The translations under genes and the position numbers were made by a program. Shown here piece by piece: positions 1-6,240 of a stretch of 64,000 nucleotides of DNA. Under the pieces are notes generated by a model, which did no database searches, was not told the origin of the DNA, and saw only the letters and a program-made list of their open reading frames with translations. The stretch is from Bizionia myxarmorum (GTDB taxonomy: Bacteria > Bacteroidota > Bacteroidia > Flavobacteriales > Flavobacteriaceae): contig NZ_VSKK01000001.1 of the NCBI RefSeq assembly GCF_008086205.1, forward strand, positions 310,001 to 374,000, in the 5' to 3' direction. Every line of letters begins with the position of its first letter. Position 1 is the first letter of the stretch.

Positions 1-2
1 TT

Positions 3-89
3 TATTACGTATTAGGATTTTTAACGCTGATATTTATTGTATTTTTGATATTAAGAAAACGCATAATTAATGAGCGAAAAAGCAGCTAA
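3..89 (+). CDS. C-terminal fragment of a membrane protein (cut by window edge)
   Basis: An open frame enters from the left edge and ends at TAA 87-89, overlapping the next gene by 20 bases. The visible 28 residues are a hydrophobic stretch (YYVLGFLTLIFIVFLIL) followed by basic residues (RKR), which looks like a last membrane helix with a positive cytoplasmic tail. The family cannot be told from this fragment. The neighbouring frame is also open here but encodes no membrane segment. Confidence 0.35.
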   Translation, partial: YYVLGFLTLIFIVFLILRKRIINERKSS

Positions 90-525
90 AAGTCTGAAAG
101 ATTTTCTTTTGGAAAAAGGGTATACTAGGACCAAATTAAAGTTAACAAGAACCAATCATTTTGAAATAAAAGCTACTATAAACGGCATTAAAGGGTTGTT
201 TATTCTAGATACTGGTGCATCCAGTTCTTGTGTAGGTTTTGAAGCTATTGAAACCTTTAAGCTGAAAGTCATAGATTCTGAAATGAAAGCTGCCGGTGCT
301 GGCGCCATTGATATGCTAACGCAGATTTCAAAAATAAATCAGGTTAAAATCGGCAAATGGAAACAAGATAAAGTTCCCTTAATTTTATTCGATTTAACCC
401 ATGTGAACACAGCTTTAATAAGTCATAATTCACAACCTGTTGATGGTATTATTGGCGCTGATATTTTAAAAAAAGGAAAAGGTATTATTGATTACGAAAC
501 AAAATATTTATACTTAAAAATGTAA
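70..525 (+). CDS. Retropepsin-like aspartic protease family protein
   Basis: A 151-residue single-domain protein with the clan AA aspartic protease signature: FILDTGAS at residues 44-51, with the catalytic Asp at 47, and the family's second conserved motif GIIGADIL at about 126-133. Such half-size domains act as homodimers, each chain giving one aspartate. There is no signal peptide or membrane segment, so a cytoplasmic location is inferred. It overlaps the end of a membrane-protein gene and is followed by a response regulator after 62 bases. The substrate is unknown. The fold assignment is fairly sure; peptidase activity is inferred from the intact DTG motif. Confidence 0.8.
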   Translation: MSEKAAKSLKDFLLEKGYTRTKLKLTRTNHFEIKATINGIKGLFILDTGASSSCVGFEAIETFKLKVIDSEMKAAGAGAIDMLTQISKINQVKIGKWKQDKVPLILFDLTHVNTALISHNSQPVDGIIGADILKKGKGIIDYETKYLYLKM

Positions 526-587
526 GAAAAACTATACCTTTCTTAAAAATACTTATCTTTATCACGTTATACTAACCAACCACAGCC

Positions 588-1223
588 ATGCAACCTTCTA
601 TTATTATAGCGGATGATCATCCATTAATGTTACGCGGTCTTCACGACTTTTTAAAGTCTAAAGGTTACAATATTTTAGGAAGCGCCAAAGATGGCAAGGA
701 AGCTTACAATTTAATTGTTAAGCACAAACCAGAAATAGCTATTCTAGATATTCGGATGCCGTATTTAACTGGATTAGAAGTTGCTGAAGAATGTTTAAAA
801 AATGAAATTCCCACCAAAATTATCCTCATTACATTTGATAAGGGTGAAGAACTTTATGACAAAGCGAAAGAATTAAACATTTTTGGATACATTCTTAAAG
901 AGTTTGCCATTGAAGAAATTGAACTATGTATAGCCAATGTTATCAATAACAAACCCCATTTTAGTGAAGAAATAGCCTTATATCTTAATTCTACTTCAAA
1001 TACTCATAAGCCGCAAACTTTAAATAATTTAACGAAAACAGAATTAAAAGTATTGGCATTAATAGCGCAAAACCAAACCGCAATTGAAATTGGAAATGCA
1101 CTATGCGTTTCTAGCAGAACTATTGAAAAACATAAAAGTAATATTATTAAAAAATTGAATTTAGAATCCAAGCATAACAGCCTTTCCTTGTATGCGAAAG
1201 AAAATGAACAATTTCTAAACTGA
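588..1223 (+). CDS. LuxR/NarL-family response regulator, orphan
   Basis: A 211-residue two-component response regulator. The receiver domain (about 4-122) has the acidic pair D9-D10, phosphoacceptor D54 (AILDIRMP) and conserved K104. The C-terminal LuxR/GerE helix-turn-helix lies at about 147-208, with the typical SSRTIEKHKSNIIKKL recognition helix. No histidine kinase is encoded next to it. A promoter-like TATCTTTAT lies at 554-562. Directly downstream are four promoters carrying the same paired TACGTA operator. LuxR-type dimers usually bind such ten-base-spaced sites, so this protein is the natural candidate activator of the array. That link is inference from position and site geometry. Confidence 0.92.
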   Translation: MQPSIIIADDHPLMLRGLHDFLKSKGYNILGSAKDGKEAYNLIVKHKPEIAILDIRMPYLTGLEVAEECLKNEIPTKIILITFDKGEELYDKAKELNIFGYILKEFAIEEIELCIANVINNKPHFSEEIALYLNSTSNTHKPQTLNNLTKTELKVLALIAQNQTAIEIGNALCVSSRTIEKHKSNIIKKLNLESKHNSLSLYAKENEQFLN

Positions 1224-1231
1224 ATATAAAT

Positions 1232-1279
1232 TACGTATTTCTACGTATTTCAAGCCAAGTTAATATGTTGTATCTTTAC
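1232..1279 (+). promoter_or_regulatory. Paired TACGTA operator with -7 box, promoter 1 of the array
   Basis: TACGTA boxes lie at 1232-1237 and 1242-1247, each followed by TTTC. The -7 element TATCTTTAC (TAnnTTTRC) is at 1271-1279. The first T of the -7 box comes 20 bases after the last C of the operator, as in the other three promoters. The operator occupies the place of the -33 element, as expected for an activator-dependent promoter. In this copy the two halves are direct repeats rather than a clean palindrome. Confidence 0.7.
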
Positions 1280-1281
1280 AG

Positions 1282-1360
1282 TGCTATTAATCGGAGACCT
1301 TGTTTTTAACAGGTTGAAAATCAAAAGGCTTTGGACGTTTATCGTGCAAAGCCTTTTTTT
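1282..1360 (+). ncRNA. Putative small RNA 1 of the TACGTA array
   Basis: The predicted transcript starts near 1282 (TGCTATTAATC, 11 bases after the first T of the -7 box). It ends at a strong intrinsic terminator: stem AAAGGCTTTG 1324-1333 with CAAAGCCTTT 1347-1356, then a T run to 1360. No convincing reading frame fits inside. The unpaired 5' part holds the G-rich CGGAGACC. Length is about 79 nt. Start and end are predicted from sequence only. Confidence 0.6.
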
Positions 1361-1387
1361 ATGCCCTATAATAAAATGCAGAAAATA

Positions 1388-1435
1388 TACGTAGAAATAC
1401 GTATTTCACAGCTAGACAATCTACCTTATATTTAC
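1388..1435 (+). promoter_or_regulatory. Paired TACGTA operator with -7 box, promoter 2 of the array
   Basis: TACGTA boxes at 1388-1393 and 1398-1403 are separated by GAAA and followed by TTTC. The -7 element TATATTTAC is at 1427-1435. The spacing from operator end to the -7 box is again exactly 20 bases. The halves form an inverted repeat. Confidence 0.7.
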
Positions 1436-1437
1436 AT

Positions 1438-1508
1438 TGCTATTAGTTAGTTATTTGAGGGAAATTCTGAAAGGGCTTTTTATCTGCAAAGATGAAAAGC
1501 TTTTTTTT
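1438..1508 (+). ncRNA. Putative small RNA 2 of the TACGTA array
   Basis: The predicted RNA begins with TGCTATTAGTTAGTTA at 1438. It contains the motif TTGAGGGAA and ends at a terminator hairpin (arms 1475-1485 and 1490-1500, GCAA loop) followed by eight T at 1501-1508. Length is about 71 nt. It is closely similar to small RNA 3 along its whole length, pointing to tandem duplication. No open frame of useful length is present. Confidence 0.62.
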
Positions 1509-1536
1509 GGTGTCAATATAGGTTTTAATTGAAAAA

Positions 1537-1584
1537 TACGTAGTTATACGTATTTCAAATGATGAAGATTGCTTATATCTTTGC
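1537..1584 (+). promoter_or_regulatory. Paired TACGTA operator with -7 box, promoter 3 of the array
   Basis: TACGTA boxes at 1537-1542 and 1547-1552 lie within a palindrome (AAATACGTA and TACGTATTT arms). The -7 element TATCTTTGC at 1576-1584 matches the Bacteroidota consensus exactly. The operator end to -7 spacing is 20 bases, as in the other copies. Confidence 0.72.
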
Positions 1585-1586
1585 TT

Positions 1587-1653
1587 TGCTATTAGTTAGT
1601 TATTGAGGGAATATTATAGAAGCTTTTTATTTGTAAGGATAAAAAGCTTTTTT
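1587..1653 (+). ncRNA. Putative small RNA 3 of the TACGTA array
   Basis: The predicted RNA begins TGCTATTAGTTAGTTATTGAGGGAA at 1587, given here as one shared block with small RNA 2 apart from one base. It ends at a hairpin with arms 1620-1630 and 1639-1649 followed by T-rich sequence to 1653. Length is about 67 nt. The 166 bases between it and the fourth promoter show no gene or repeat that I can support. Confidence 0.62.
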
Positions 1654-1825
1654 ATTTTAATAAAATAATAAGGTCAATTCCGAATTTAACCCTAAACATC
1701 TTTTTCAAATCATATTTAAAAGTCACCTGGAATTCATTAACCATTATGAATTAATCTGTAAGATTTTACTGTATTACACTGATTATTAGCACTATAATTT
1801 TAAAAAAGTTGATAAATTCGAAAAA

Positions 1826-1873
1826 TACGTATAACTACGTATTTCAAAATCAAAAGGTTAGCATTATCTTTAC
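1826..1873 (+). promoter_or_regulatory. Paired TACGTA operator with -7 box, promoter 4 of the array
   Basis: TACGTA boxes at 1826-1831 and 1836-1841, TTTC ending at 1845, and the -7 element TATCTTTAC at 1865-1873, with the same 20-base spacing. The transcript again would begin TGCTATTAATC (1876). Here, in contrast to copies 1-3, it runs into a small protein gene. Confidence 0.72.
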
Positions 1874-1936
1874 AATGCTATTAATCACGGTTGGAGTTGT
1901 CTTTCAAGATCATTTCTACGTACAAACCAAATCAAC

Positions 1937-2071
1937 ATGTCAGAACAATCTCATCTGTTAAAGAATTTAGAAATCATGCAGGATTCTAACACAAACAAAT
2001 TTTTCGTTTTCGGAATAATTTTATTAGTCGTCATTGTAATCTCAATGAATATTGTTGTGTGCTTTTTTTAA
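1937..2071 (+). CDS. Small single-pass membrane protein (44 aa) of the array
   Basis: ATG 1937 to TAA 2069-2071 encodes 44 residues. There is a polar N-terminal part (MSEQSHLLKNLEIMQDSN) and one hydrophobic helix at about residues 22-42 (FFVFGIILLVVIVISMNIVV). The predicted leader is about 60 nt from the fourth TACGTA promoter, and a strong terminator follows at 2100. The unit is therefore a complete promoter-gene-terminator cassette, which argues that the frame is real. The function is unknown; small inner-membrane proteins often modulate membrane sensors or transporters. Confidence 0.6.
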   Translation: MSEQSHLLKNLEIMQDSNTNKFFVFGIILLVVIVISMNIVVCFF

Positions 2072-2099
2072 TGCAACAATTAATTTTTAAAAAGCAAAA

Positions 2100-2128
2100 G
2101 GGCTATTTCTCATGAAATAGCCCTTTTT
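2100..2128. terminator. Bidirectional terminator between the array and sucB
   Basis: Perfect ten-base stem GGGCTATTTC 2100-2109 and GAAATAGCCC 2114-2123, loop TCAT, with a T run on the plus strand. A-rich sequence on the other side gives a T-rich tail on the minus strand. It can end both the small-protein transcript and the convergent sucAB transcript. Confidence 0.8.
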
Positions 2129-2151
2129 ATTTTTAAAAATATTTTTTGAAA

Positions 2152-3414
2152 TTATAACTCCAAAGCTCTTTTCACATCATTATCCATTAACAATTCCGTA
2201 GGATTTTCTAATGCTTCTTTAATAGCCACCAAGAAACCAACAGATTCTTTTCCATCAATAATTCTATGGTCATAAGATAATGCTACATACATAATTGGAC
2301 GAATTTCCACGTGCCCATCAATAGCAACTGGTCGTTCAACAATATTATGCATTCCTAAAATACCACTTTGAGGCGGGTTAATAATAGGGGTTGAAAGCAT
2401 ACTTCCAAAAACACCACCATTAGAAATAGTAAATGTTCCGCCTGTCATTTCATCCACTGTAATTTTACCATCACGTGCACGCAATGCTAAACGTTTCACC
2501 TCATCTTCAACACCTCTAAAGCTTAAGTTTTCAGCATTTCTAATAACAGGAACCATTAAACCTTTAGGTCCAGAAACCGCAATAGAAATATCAACAAAAT
2601 CATAAGTTATCATTTCGTTTCCATCTATCATGGAGTTCACATCTGGGTACATTTTCAAAGCTCTAACTACAGCTAAAGTAAAGAAGGACATAAATCCTAA
2701 TCCTACACCATGCTTGCTTTTAAAGGTTTCTTTGTATTCATTTCTCAATGCAAAAATTGGCGACATATCTACTTCATTAAACGTAGTAAGCATGGCAGTT
2801 GTATTTTTAGCTTCCACTAAACGTTCTGCTACCTTACGTCTTAACATAGACATTCTACTTCTAGATGATGAACGGTTTCCACCTGTTGGTGTTCCCATAG
2901 AAGGTACTGCATTTACAGCATCATCTTTAGTGATACGACCATCCTTTCCACTTCCAAAGATTCCTGAAGCATCCATATTTTTTTCAGCTAAAATCTTTTT
3001 AGCAGCAGGACTTGCTGTTCCAGTAGCATATGTTTTAGTTTCCGCTTTAGCTTCTGGTTTTGGTGCTTGCTTTTTAGCTTCAGCCGGCGCTTCTTTGGTT
3101 TCTTTAGCTTCTTCTTTAGATTCAGATTTAACTGCTTCTTTCTTTTCAGAACTTTCAGAGCCACCTCCTGGTTTTTCAGCAGATGTATCAATTAAGCAAA
3201 CAACAGCTCCAACCGCAACGGCATCACCTTCTTCAGCTTTAAGCGTTATAGTTCCACTTGCTTCTGCAGGCAGTTCTAAAGTGGCTTTATCGCTATCTAC
3301 TTCCGCAATAGCTTGGTCTTTTTCTACGTAATCACCATCGGCAACTAACCATGTTGCAATTTCTACTTCTGTAATAGATTCTCCTGGCGAAGGAACTTTC
3401 ATTTCTAAAATCAT
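2152..3414 (-). CDS. sucB: 2-oxoglutarate dehydrogenase E2, dihydrolipoamide succinyltransferase
   Basis: A 420-residue E2 subunit that moves the succinyl group from the E1 product to CoA in the TCA cycle. The lipoyl domain is residues 1-80 with lipoyl lysine K43 in [11 protein letters not shown] long Lys/Glu/Ala-rich flexible linker (about 85-128) follows, then a peripheral subunit-binding domain (about 133-170, [10 protein letters not shown]) and the catalytic acyltransferase core with [12 protein letters not shown], active H383 and D387. Length and order are normal for the family. It lies 24 bases after sucA on the same strand, so the two are co-transcribed. Confidence 0.97.
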
Positions 3415-3438
3415 CGTGATACTGTTTTAGTTTTTATT

Positions 3439-6240
3439 TTATTTTTTGTGTTGGTTGTTTTTCGTTTTGTCAAAAACATAGTCTATAACTTCTTTATGAC
3501 GTTTTTTAGATCTTACCGAGCTTCCAGCTGCTGGTGCTCCATAAGGTCTACGAGAAACGGCTCTGAATGTTTTGGCTTGGTCTAAATGCATTAGCATGTG
3601 ACTGTAAGCACCCATGTTTCTAGGTTCTTCTTGAGCCCAAACAATTTCTTCAGCATGCTTATATTTCTCCATAACCGCTTCAATTTGTTCGATTGGTAAT
3701 GGAAATAATTGCTCTATTCTTACTAAAGCAACATCTTTACGTTCTAGTTTATCGCGTTCTTCATGTAAATCATAATAAAACTTACCGGTTACAAACACTA
3801 ATGATTTCACATCAGCTGTTTTAATTTCCACATCGTCTATTAACTCTTGGAATCCACCATTTGCAAACTCCTCAACGGTTGAAACCACTTTAGGATTACG
3901 CAACAAACTCTTTGGTGTAAATATAATTAACGGTTTACGGTATTTCGCTTTTACTTGACGACGTAATATATGGAACATGTTGGCTGGCGTTGTACAGTCT
4001 GCCACAAACATATTATCTTTCGCACATAATTGTAAAAAACGCTCCATACGCCCTGATGAATGTTCAGCACCTTGACCTTCATAGCCGTGAGGTAATAACA
4101 TAACCAATCCGTTTTGTAGTTTCCATTTATCTTCTGCTGCAGAAATGTATTGATCCACCATAATTTGGGCACCATTACCAAAATCTCCAAACTGTGCTTC
4201 CCAAATAGTTAATGTTTTCGGACTTGCCATGGCGTAACCATAATCAAAACCAACTACACCATATTCAGATAATAAGGAGTTATAAATAAAGAAATTTCCT
4301 TGGGTATCGCTCAATTGGTTGTGTAAGATAATTTCTTCCTCACTATCTTCAACTTTTACAACCGCATGTCTATGCGAAAACGTTCCACGCTCCACATCCT
4401 GACCTGAAATTCTAACATCATTACCATCTAAAAGTAAAGTTCCGTAGGCTAAATGTTCTGCCATTGACCAGTCTAATTTATCTTCATCAAACATAGTTTG
4501 TCTAGATTCTATTAAACGCTCAATTTTACGAATGAACTTTTTATCTTTTGGAAGCGTAGAAATAACTTTCGTTACTTTTTCTAAATCCGACTTGCTACAT
4601 GTAGTATCAATCGGTTTCAGCATTTTATCTTCTTCAACAGAAATAAAATCTACCCATTCATTTTGCATAAATGGTGTAATTTCTGTTTTATCTTCTTTTC
4701 TAGAATCCTCTAAATTTTCTTCTAGCTTATTTTTGTAATCTTCTTCTAATTTTTGAACATGTTTTTCATCAATGATACCTTCAGAAATAAGCTTGGCAGC
4801 ATAAATATCTCTAGGGTTTTGATGTTTTGCAATAGCTTTATATAATTTTGGCTGTGTAAAACGTGGCTCATCACCTTCGTTATGTCCATATTTTCTATAA
4901 CCCAATAAATCAATAAAGACGTCGCGCTTAAATTTCATCCTAAAATGAAGCGCAAATAACATAGCGTGCACAACTGCTTCCGCGTCATCCGCATTAACAT
5001 GTAATACTGGCGACAAGGTTACTTTTGCAATATCCGTACAATAGGTGCTAGAACGCGCATCCAAATAGTTGGTAGTAAAACCGATTTGGTTATTTACTAC
5101 AATATGAATGGTTCCACTTGTTTTATAACCATCTAATTGCGCCATTTGCACAATTTCATAAACCAAACCTTGAGCTGCAATGGCTGCATCTCCATGTACA
5201 ATAATTGGAAGTACTTGTGATGGGTTATCAGAATATTTATCGTCTTGTTTGGCTCTAGTTATACCTTCTACTACAGCACCAACAGTTTCTAAATGCGAAG
5301 GGTTAGGTGCAATATTTAGGTTTATTTTTTTACCGTTTTCAGTAACACGATCACTCGTCCAACCTAAATGGTATTTCACGTCGCCATCAAAAACTTCTTG
5401 TTCGTAATCTTTTCCATCAAATTCACTAAAGATGTCTTTCGCTGATTTACCGAAAATATTTGTTAAGGTACTTAAACGACCACGGTGAGCCATTCCCATT
5501 ACAAATTCTTTTACGTCGTATTCTGATGCTTTTTCAATTAAAGCATCTAAAGCAGGAATTAAGGATTCGCCACCTTCTAAAGAGAAACGTTTTTGACCTA
5601 CATATTTGGTATGTAAAAATGTTTCAAAAGAAACGGCTTCGTTTAACTTTTTAAGAATGTGCTTTTTTTCATCCTTTGAAAAATCAGGTAAATTATCATT
5701 CACATTCAATTTTTCCTGAATCCATTTAATTTCTTCAGGTTTTCTAATGTACATGTATTCCACACCTATGGAAAGGCAATAGATGTTTTCTAAATGTTTG
5801 ATGATGTTTCGCAACGTATCAGAACCTAAACCTAAAGTGTTTCCAGCACTAAAAGATGTGTCTAAATCTGATTGTGACAAACCGAAATTTTCCAACGCTA
5901 GAGTTGGCTCATACGTTCTTCTGTCTCGTACAGGGTTTGTTTTAGTAAACAAATGCCCTCTGGTACGATAGCCATCTATTAATTGTAAAACCTGAAATTC
6001 TTTCGTGACACTAATGGATACATGTTCACAGGAATCATCTGTTCCTATAACCTGTTCTGTTTCCACTTGGGCTGCTTGAACAGATTCATCCTTTATGCCA
6101 TAGCTTTCGCTACCAAAATCGAAACCTTGAAAGAAAGCTCTCCAACTTGGCTCGACAGAATCCGGATTTTTTAAGTATTGGTCGTATAAATCAGCAAAGT
6201 ATGCCGAATGTGCTGCGTTTAAAAAAGAATATTTATCCAT
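3439..6240 (-). CDS. sucA: 2-oxoglutarate dehydrogenase E1 component
   Basis: A 933-residue thiamine-diphosphate-dependent decarboxylase of the 2-oxoglutarate dehydrogenase complex. The N terminus has the usual short E2-binding helix (YFADLYDQYLKNP). Active-site motifs are GMAHRGRL (249-256), the GDAA of the ThDP/Mg motif (350-353) and NNQIGFTT (383-390). Full length compares well with E. coli SucA. It is the first gene of the sucAB pair, with a -7 element 38-46 bases upstream of the start. No lpd (E3) gene is present in the window. Confidence 0.97.
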   Translation of the reverse strand: MDKYSFLNAAHSAYFADLYDQYLKNPDSVEPSWRAFFQGFDFGSESYGIKDESVQAAQVETEQVIGTDDSCEHVSISVTKEFQVLQLIDGYRTRGHLFTKTNPVRDRRTYEPTLALENFGLSQSDLDTSFSAGNTLGLGSDTLRNIIKHLENIYCLSIGVEYMYIRKPEEIKWIQEKLNVNDNLPDFSKDEKKHILKKLNEAVSFETFLHTKYVGQKRFSLEGGESLIPALDALIEKASEYDVKEFVMGMAHRGRLSTLTNIFGKSAKDIFSEFDGKDYEQEVFDGDVKYHLGWTSDRVTENGKKINLNIAPNPSHLETVGAVVEGITRAKQDDKYSDNPSQVLPIIVHGDAAIAAQGLVYEIVQMAQLDGYKTSGTIHIVVNNQIGFTTNYLDARSSTYCTDIAKVTLSPVLHVNADDAEAVVHAMLFALHFRMKFKRDVFIDLLGYRKYGHNEGDEPRFTQPKLYKAIAKHQNPRDIYAAKLISEGIIDEKHVQKLEEDYKNKLEENLEDSRKEDKTEITPFMQNEWVDFISVEEDKMLKPIDTTCSKSDLEKVTKVISTLPKDKKFIRKIERLIESRQTMFDEDKLDWSMAEHLAYGTLLLDGNDVRISGQDVERGTFSHRHAVVKVEDSEEEIILHNQLSDTQGNFFIYNSLLSEYGVVGFDYGYAMASPKTLTIWEAQFGDFGNGAQIMVDQYISAAEDKWKLQNGLVMLLPHGYEGQGAEHSSGRMERFLQLCAKDNMFVADCTTPANMFHILRRQVKAKYRKPLIIFTPKSLLRNPKVVSTVEEFANGGFQELIDDVEIKTADVKSLVFVTGKFYYDLHEERDKLERKDVALVRIEQLFPLPIEQIEAVMEKYKHAEEIVWAQEEPRNMGAYSHMLMHLDQAKTFRAVSRRPYGAPAAGSSVRSKKRHKEVIDYVFDKTKNNQHKK

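Follow-up and report, generated by a model that had tools for sequence, protein, structure and literature searches.

The 64,000-nucleotide stretch of the Bizionia myxarmorum genome analysed here (Flavobacteriaceae; contig NZ_VSKK01000001.1, positions 310,001 to 374,000; hereafter the window) encodes a NarL/FixJ-type response regulator whose gene is followed by four tandem promoter units with the same operator. Three of the units are predicted to produce small RNAs and the fourth precedes the gene for a tiny membrane protein. The best explanation of this arrangement, and one that we consider probable, is a tandem small-RNA array that would be activated by the regulator and would feed back on the regulator mRNA. 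The operator, its spacing, the array, the RNA family, the small open reading frame (ORF), the complementarity between RNA and mRNA and the partial covariation of that complementarity all emerge from comparison with orthologous loci. A preliminary description of the window had proposed a flavobacterial response regulator with sibling small RNAs. The comparisons favour that proposal: the RNAs are conserved siblings, the phosphorylation site of the regulator is present in 81 of 81 sequences and the operator appears NarL-compatible.

Operators and promoters of the array

The window contains four exact sites for the paired TACGTA boxes (TACGTA-N4-TACGTA) on the forward strand, starting at 1232, 1388, 1537 and 1826, and the identical distances that had been described for the four promoters were found in all of them. 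Between the operator end and the first base of the TAnnTTT box (the -7 box) there are 23 bp. The distance from the TTTC end to this box is constant, as had been claimed, but the figure given for it, 20 bases, does not stand, as 19 bases intervene. The T of TGCTATTA lies 11 bases after the start of the box in 4/4 promoters, in agreement with the earlier observation, and GCTATTA follows each box. In the entire genome (3.36 Mb, completeness 99.91%) the exact pattern TACGTAN4TACGTATTTC is found at these four sites only, while the reversed pattern, used as a control, gave no site. A fifth, weak operator site (C5:1511345) lacks a correctly spaced TAnnTTT box.

For comparison, 80 named orthologue loci were retained from 236 relatives, making 81 loci with the window; the closest are from Bizionia argentinensis and B. 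echini, with protein identities of 86–88%. The loci (numbered with the prefix L) are mutually related, so that P values overstate. A unit was defined as an operator with at most two mismatches and a TAnnTTT box exactly 23 bp further on, and 205 units were found. Conservation beside orthologues had been named beforehand as one of the checks on the proposal, and it was borne out: at least one unit lies beside the regulator gene in 81/81 loci and at least two in 76/81, with a maximum of eight in one locus that runs off its contig. The first operator starts between -6 and +13 nt from the regulator stop codon in 72 of the loci. Apart from two operator sites in L021, none lies upstream of the regulator gene or more than 1200 nt downstream of it, and a single unit is on the opposite strand. 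The 23-bp spacing is seen at 99 of 104 exact operators, at 74 of 78 with one mismatch and at 27 of 62 with two mismatches, about half of the last group having no box at all and probably being chance matches.

More distant orthologues (55–59% identity; L282, L283, L286 and L287) keep the operators and RNA cores, and their -7 boxes fail the strict rule. A sequence model of the promoter and the 5′ part of the RNA, which also detects the second system described below, matched 116 of 199 family genomes at E ≤0.01, with a best E ≤1e-6 in 68 of them; many of the weaker matches may be due to chance. A class-wide search with this model gave two of 198 genomes at 1e-4, namely B. myxarmorum itself and one genome outside the family, in which only the operator and promoter are present, ahead of a protein gene; the filters were strict and absence from this search is a soft result. 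A TACGTA-type operator and promoter also precede a small conserved protein gene (MIRL-LKPSI...) in L159 (1501-1551) and L163 (1501-1554), next to a murA-like gene. The regulon may include the MIRL-LKPSI... gene as a protein-coding member.

The operator is a palindromic span of 16 bp; in 158 of the 205 units it is preceded by an A run and followed by a T run (at least 4/5 on both sides). Complementary outer bases in the N4 spacer, which would be the seventh bases of the half-sites, occur in 99/205 units and in 0/4 in the window, and CTACGTA is not the majority form of the operator half. According to the part of PMC7419079 consulted, NarL binds inverted 7-2-7 sites (two 7-base elements, 2 bp apart) and can activate from -44.5. 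The 16-bp span and inverted frame are compatible with such sites, the geometry being unsettled by sequence alone because TACGTA is its own reverse complement. With the T of TGCTATTA as the assumed transcription start, the operator would be centred at -42.5, near the -44.5 position of NarL. Of the 205 units, in all of which operator and box are good, six lack GCTATTA. Five of these are protein-coding units (L044, L048, L050, L063 and L064), and the motif is therefore not a requirement of the promoter.

The regulator combines a receiver with its paired aspartates, phospho-accepting aspartate, threonine and lysine and a GerE/LuxR helix-turn-helix, the features of NarL/FixJ response regulators. 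Residues D9, D10, D54, T82 and K104, which make up the full phosphorylation site, are those kept in every aligned sequence. Its top NCBIfam matches, among those listed, are mostly of the NarL/FixJ type and all far under their cut-offs. A Pfam scan of nine neighbouring ORFs (not all neighbours) found no kinase domain that would indicate a partner kinase.

The predicted small RNAs and the tiny membrane protein

The first three units in the window end in terminators after 79, 71 and 67 nt, close to the 70–80 nt first estimated, and the fourth leads, as also suggested at the outset, into a small membrane protein gene (a single-span ORF of 44 codons at 1937-2071). Under a rule calling for a hairpin and T run within 120 nt, 171 of the 205 units have a terminator; most RNAs end after 64–83 nt, and only one of the 171 contains an ATG frame of at least 15 codons. 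By inspection, 29 of the 34 units that fail the rule run into the small ORF and one is cut by a contig end; the other four (L021, L075, L076 and L081) are RNA units whose hairpins are visible but escaped the rule.

The commonest RNA core is GCUAUUAAUUAGUUCUUAGGGAGAAUUA. Its first 25 bases, GCTATTAATNNGTTCTTAGGGAGAA, searched with two positions free and at most one mismatch, are present in 35 of 149 family genomes, and the reversed control in none. The unpaired 5′ tail of the RNAs, GCUAUUAAU, is conserved as well as the loop. Of 104 RNAs, 95 were kept for alignment (nine odd ones were dropped) and 78 of the 95 were aligned; in the terminator stem two-sided changes were found at 12/12 pairs. Consensus folding recovers the terminator only, and the first hairpin rests on single folds, in which a short hairpin presenting UAGGG before the terminator is possible in many RNAs, and on an arm-swap test. 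GGG precedes the terminator in 145 of 200 transcripts, with one hairpin per RNA. The arm-swap test drew on these 145 transcripts and comprised 70 distinct arm pairs, with a mean of 6.49 bp for an RNA's own arms, 4.98 for arms swapped between unlike RNAs and 4.39 for shuffled arms. In the window, the form carried by units 2 and 3 is shorter, with GAGGGA, whereas the hairpin of unit 1 is a different one that is common to the Bizionia loci L022 and L023.

None of the units in the sequences scanned (window 1-4000; L025, L058, L077, L086, L154, L155 and L162) was matched by an Rfam 15 covariance model at gathering score, and the literature searched (open-licence papers) describes no regulator-adjacent array of such RNAs. 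On both grounds the array RNAs appear to constitute a new RNA family, with comparative support; Rfp18 of Flavobacterium psychrophilum is set apart by description. Away from the array, the Flavo-1 family was detected below threshold at L025 11830-11920 on the reverse strand (37.9 bits, cut-off 42).

A small single-span ORF follows a unit in 75 of the 81 loci and encodes 31–73 aa, mostly 31–44 aa. Its substitutions at codon positions 1, 2 and 3 number 3173, 1727 and 4724 over 354 pairs, a protein-like pattern, and three of the small ORFs scanned against Pfam and NCBIfam belonged to no family at cut-off. Within an array the protein-coding unit usually comes last, and its leader is similar to the RNAs.

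Complementarity to the regulator mRNA

For each locus, the first RNA was compared with gene starts, from -60 to +15, of the regulator and of 722 other genes at the same loci, the control starts being longest-ORF guesses. Median duplex energy was -14.8 at the regulator start and -9.4 at the others, and the regulator start ranked first in 43 of the 81 loci (8.8 expected). ATTAATAGC, which is complementary to the 5′ end of the RNA, is present in 25/81 regulator leaders and 1/722 other starts, and a CTCCCT-type box in 45/81 and 10/722, respectively. Alignment-checked starts of the convergent neighbours odhB and odhA gave medians of -7.8 (61 loci) and -9.9 (59 loci) and none has the box; the regulator pairs better than odhB in 54 of 61 loci and better than odhA in 45 of 59. 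The predicted duplex covers or adjoins the regulator start codon in many loci, and repression is therefore the likely sign of the regulation.

The leader has in places followed the RNA. In L086, where the RNA has diverged to UUUUGGGAG, the leader has CTCCCAAAA. A non-canonical core is found in 18 loci, and in five of them (L022, L023, L086, L100 and the window) the best of the locus's own units pairs better than at least 98% of the units of other loci. In eight of nine loci outside this own-unit test the best own energy lies between -13.7 and -21.9, compared with shuffled medians of -8.0 to -12.1, a comparison of best-of-n with a median that favours pairing and in which L284 is on the same contig as L031. 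The complementarity between the RNAs and the regulator mRNA covaries in part of the lineages. Autoregulatory feedback is probably the best reading of it.

Other targets were also considered. The mRNA of the small protein was rejected, as no signal was found (mean z +0.39 over 75 loci). Among places in five genomes that match TCTCCCTAA, a 9-mer complementary to the RNA loop, five of 56 coincide with RNA loci, and six of the 51 inspected are also RNA loci.

A second regulator adjoining the same RNA family

The same RNA core was found elsewhere behind another palindrome, TACTCAAWTTGAGTATTG, whose distance from the -7 position is also 23 bp. Searched as a 57-base pattern with at most two mismatches, this second arrangement (system 2) was detected in 33 of 199 family genomes; the copy in B. 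myxarmorum is at C10:325483-325539. An orthologous regulator of about 256 aa, 63–85% identical to the B. myxarmorum copy, is encoded in 29 of 30 fetched system-2 loci (own included), in 28 of them 6–251 nt upstream of its operator by the ORF rule. The B. myxarmorum protein has a GerE domain and a sub-threshold match to PAS_3, which would make it an orphan PAS-like/LuxR regulator. Two regulators, therefore, adjoin one RNA family, and the second system may act on the first regulator. The exception is L213, in which the second operator (1501 onward) appears to drive a putative lipoprotein gene, with neither an RNA nor the regulator beside it. At L151 (1501-1567) the RNA core is present in its canonical form but is preceded by neither of the two known operators, and it is possibly under a third control.

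Contrary evidence and alternative explanations

Several results weigh against feedback through RNA pairing. In the window itself pairing is modest, with -12.6 for unit 1 and values near background for units 2 and 3 (-9.1 and -9.6). Six of the 18 non-canonical loci show weak or intermediate preference for their own units (L021, L024, L044, L048, L077 and L085) and seven show none (L075, L081, L087, L088, L089, L092 and L094); L280 fails among the nine additional loci. For the protease, a checked start was available in four loci only, and the regulator paired better in one of these. The reversed control gave more matches in the five genomes (97) than TCTCCCTAA itself (56), and none of the genes at the 51 of 56 places inspected recurs between these genomes as a trans target. 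The leaders of the system-2 regulators (26 leaders) were rejected as targets, with no general pairing and single cases such as L212. Finally, no RNA chaperone of the three families searched (CsrA, Hfq and RRM; ProQ was outside the search) was found in the B. myxarmorum genome. CsrA (PF02599) gave no match there and matched three of 14 control genomes; Hfq gave none and matched some control genomes; RRM_1 (PF00076) gave none and matched a Bacteroides control genome. Membership of the Csr/Rsm system was rejected on the first of these results and an Hfq or RRM partner on the other two, a decoy for another protein being kept as an alternative.

That alternative, which we consider unlikely, is that the RNAs are protein decoys as in the Gac/Rsm system, their GGGA-loop hairpins soaking up an RNA-binding protein, with mRNA complementarity secondary. 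NarL-family control, as of RsmY and RsmZ by GacA, fits this explanation, as do the arrays of up to eight copies, the frequent GGG before the terminator together with the better pairing of an RNA's own arms than of swapped or shuffled ones, and the lack of a recurrent trans mRNA target. Set against it are the lack of a CsrA, Hfq or RRM match in the genome and the 5′ tail GCUAUUAAU, which is as conserved as the loop and is matched in regulator leaders far more often than at other starts.

It is still less likely that the operators are bound by a factor other than the adjacent regulator, such as a paralogous LuxR-type protein. A second LuxR-type protein does adjoin the same type of RNA, with a different palindrome, but operator units adjoin the present regulator at every locus, the second operator adjoins its own regulator in 29/30, and the palindrome is compatible with NarL-family sites. 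That the units are mainly binding-site decoys, tandem copies of which would titrate the regulator, or leaders duplicated from the gene for the tiny membrane protein, as its usual last place and RNA-like leader might suggest, with RNAs inert in trans, is very improbable given a 25-nt core that is nearly identical across 35/149 family genomes and reused under another regulator elsewhere, terminators conserved by covariation and a GCTATTA motif that the promoter does not require.

Proposed regulatory circuit

Under the regulator-activated array with feedback, the phosphorylated NarL-family regulator would bind the 16-bp palindrome (centre about -42.5) as a dimer and activate the tandem promoters just downstream of its own gene by class II activation. 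Most units would yield sibling RNAs of 64–83 nt, each with the single-stranded 5′ tail GCUAUUAAU, a purine-loop hairpin of the UAGGGA type and a terminator. Tail and loop are predicted to form a duplex with the regulator mRNA, at its leader and around its start codon, most likely blocking translation of the regulator and thereby limiting the response by negative feedback, and the same core very likely acts on further mRNAs. The last unit would make the tiny membrane protein under the same control. The second, orphan PAS-like/LuxR regulator would make the same type of RNA from its own locus, and a second signal could in this way dampen the response regulator. Transcription, binding, phosphorylation, the sign of regulation and the other targets are what we infer in this scheme.

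We tentatively extend the scheme, with rather less than even confidence, to a two-input circuit of the Flavobacteriaceae that is independent of Hfq, CsrA and RRM proteins. The phosphorelay regulator and the PAS-LuxR sensor would each drive local copies of one highly conserved small RNA through promoters of the same geometry with different palindromes; the RNA would silence the mRNA of the phosphorelay regulator and other mRNAs, so that the PAS sensor vetoes the phosphorelay, and the co-regulated membrane protein of 30–45 aa would feed back on a further, putative sensor.

Few studies of flavobacterial small RNAs were found in the literature searched. The array presents an RNA regulon across many genera of one family, together with its operators and with predictions of the start sites and of one target, and makes testable both small-RNA action without Hfq, CsrA or RRM proteins and the targets of orphan LuxR-type regulators.

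Genomic context

The features of the locus are collected in Table 1. The retropepsin-like protease gene may belong to the signalling pathway. Upstream of it are genes for a PKD/DUF7619/DUF7849 protein and for a TPR-CHAT protein whose C terminus has a hydrophobic segment (L101 5472-10089, equivalent to window -4528 to 89); homologues of the two were found in 32/80 and 33/80 loci, synteny being counted on the 80 loci with 6-kb flanks. The presence of CHAT, retropepsin-like protease and response regulator as neighbours is suggestive. The array is convergent with two genes (window 2152-6240) that resemble odhB/sucB and odhA/sucA, and an odhB homologue lies near the array in 65/80 fetched loci. A dihydrolipoyl dehydrogenase-like gene is present in 7/30 system-2 loci (3 kb each), including that of B. 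myxarmorum. Both RNA loci of this genome adjoin 2-oxoglutarate dehydrogenase genes, perhaps by coincidence. A mobile origin was rejected, the single plasmid match being distant (41.7% identity).

Table 1 Features of the regulator locus in window coordinates.
Feature	Position	Strand	Basis
Retropepsin-like aspartyl protease gene	70..525	+	Pfam PF13650, 3.6e-13; homologue upstream of regulator in 80/80 loci
Regulator mRNA start region, predicted to pair with array RNAs (here mainly unit 1)	576..612	+	Duplex predictions and controls
NarL/FixJ-type response regulator, receiver and GerE/LuxR helix-turn-helix, 211 aa, predicted phosphorylatable	588..1223	+	Pfam PF00072, 6.8e-23; PF00196, 4.1e-12; conserved residues
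Operator 1, TACGTA-N4-TACGTA	1232..1247	+	Exact site
-7 box of promoter 1, TATCTTTA	1271..1278	+	Sequence; spacing statistics
Small RNA 1, about 79 nt, Bizionia-type core, intrinsic terminator	1282..1360	+	Sequence
Operator 2	1388..1403	+	Exact site
-7 box of promoter 2, TATATTTA	1427..1434	+	Sequence
Small RNA 2, about 71 nt, GAGGGA core, terminator	1438..1508	+	Sequence
Operator 3	1537..1552	+	Exact site
-7 box of promoter 3, TATCTTTG	1576..1583	+	Sequence
Small RNA 3, about 67 nt, GAGGGA core, terminator	1587..1653	+	Sequence
Operator 4	1826..1841	+	Exact site
-7 box of promoter 4, TATCTTTA	1865..1872	+	Sequence
Leader of unit-4 mRNA, starting with GCTATTAAT like the RNAs	1876..1936	+	Unit comparison
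ORF for 44-aa single-span membrane protein	1937..2071	+	Such an ORF after a unit in 75/81 loci
Hairpin between A and T runs, probable unit-4 terminator, possibly also for the convergent gene	2096..2130	.	Sequence

Comparison with known systems

LuxO of Vibrio is a sigma-54 activator of another family and the Qrr RNAs work with Hfq; OmrA and OmrB of Escherichia coli are Hfq-dependent; CiaR of Streptococcus is an OmpR-type regulator; RbpB of Bacteroides is an RRM protein; and GacA, of the NarL family, controls RsmX, RsmY and RsmZ, several RNAs with purine motifs in hairpin loops. The array resembles the GacA system in its NarL-family regulator and its several RNAs, with purine motifs in predicted hairpin loops. 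Unlike that system, no CsrA/RsmA was found in the B. myxarmorum genome and the RNAs are complementary to an mRNA.

As in the LuxO/Qrr system, sibling RNAs with one conserved core are under a response regulator, and the Qrr RNAs pair with luxO mRNA, as outlined in the sections of PMC4211561 consulted. The present regulator is instead of the NarL family, its genome has no Hfq match, and its RNAs are in a tandem array with a sigma-A-like TAnnTTT box rather than a sigma-54 promoter, whereas the Qrr genes are described in those sections as distal to each other. The OmrA/OmrB RNAs are tandem siblings driven by OmpR that repress the regulator gene ompR (PMC4211561, same sections); they differ in having an OmpR-type regulator and two copies, and the likeness is by description and not by sequence. 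CiaR, one response regulator, controls two to six sibling csRNAs together with protein genes (PMC4507080 and PMC4211561, in part). The csRNAs, however, are from Firmicutes, their copies are partly clustered and partly dispersed, and a second regulator is not mentioned for CiaR in those parts.

Within the Bacteroidota, FopS and GibS of Bacteroides, the RNAs linked to RbpB, are also multicopy paralogous RNAs that pair with mRNA start regions (PMC11697453, in the portion consulted). Their copies are at many loci with canonical promoters, and that portion of PMC11697453 mentions no adjacent regulator; no RRM partner of the RbpB kind was detected in the B. myxarmorum genome. Rfp18 of F. psychrophilum is, like the array RNAs, a conserved flavobacterial small RNA, but it has at least three stem-loops and affects proteases, and the term response regulator does not occur in the main text of PMC9723704, against which the comparison was made by description.

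Other phyla are thus known to have both sibling RNAs controlled by a response regulator and feedback of RNAs on the regulator itself, as far as the consulted parts of PMC4211561 and PMC4507080 describe them. What appears to be new here is the predicted feedback complementarity, the second regulator adjoining the same RNA family and the lack of a CsrA, Hfq or RRM match in the genome; the conservation of the tiny protein likewise goes beyond the preliminary description.

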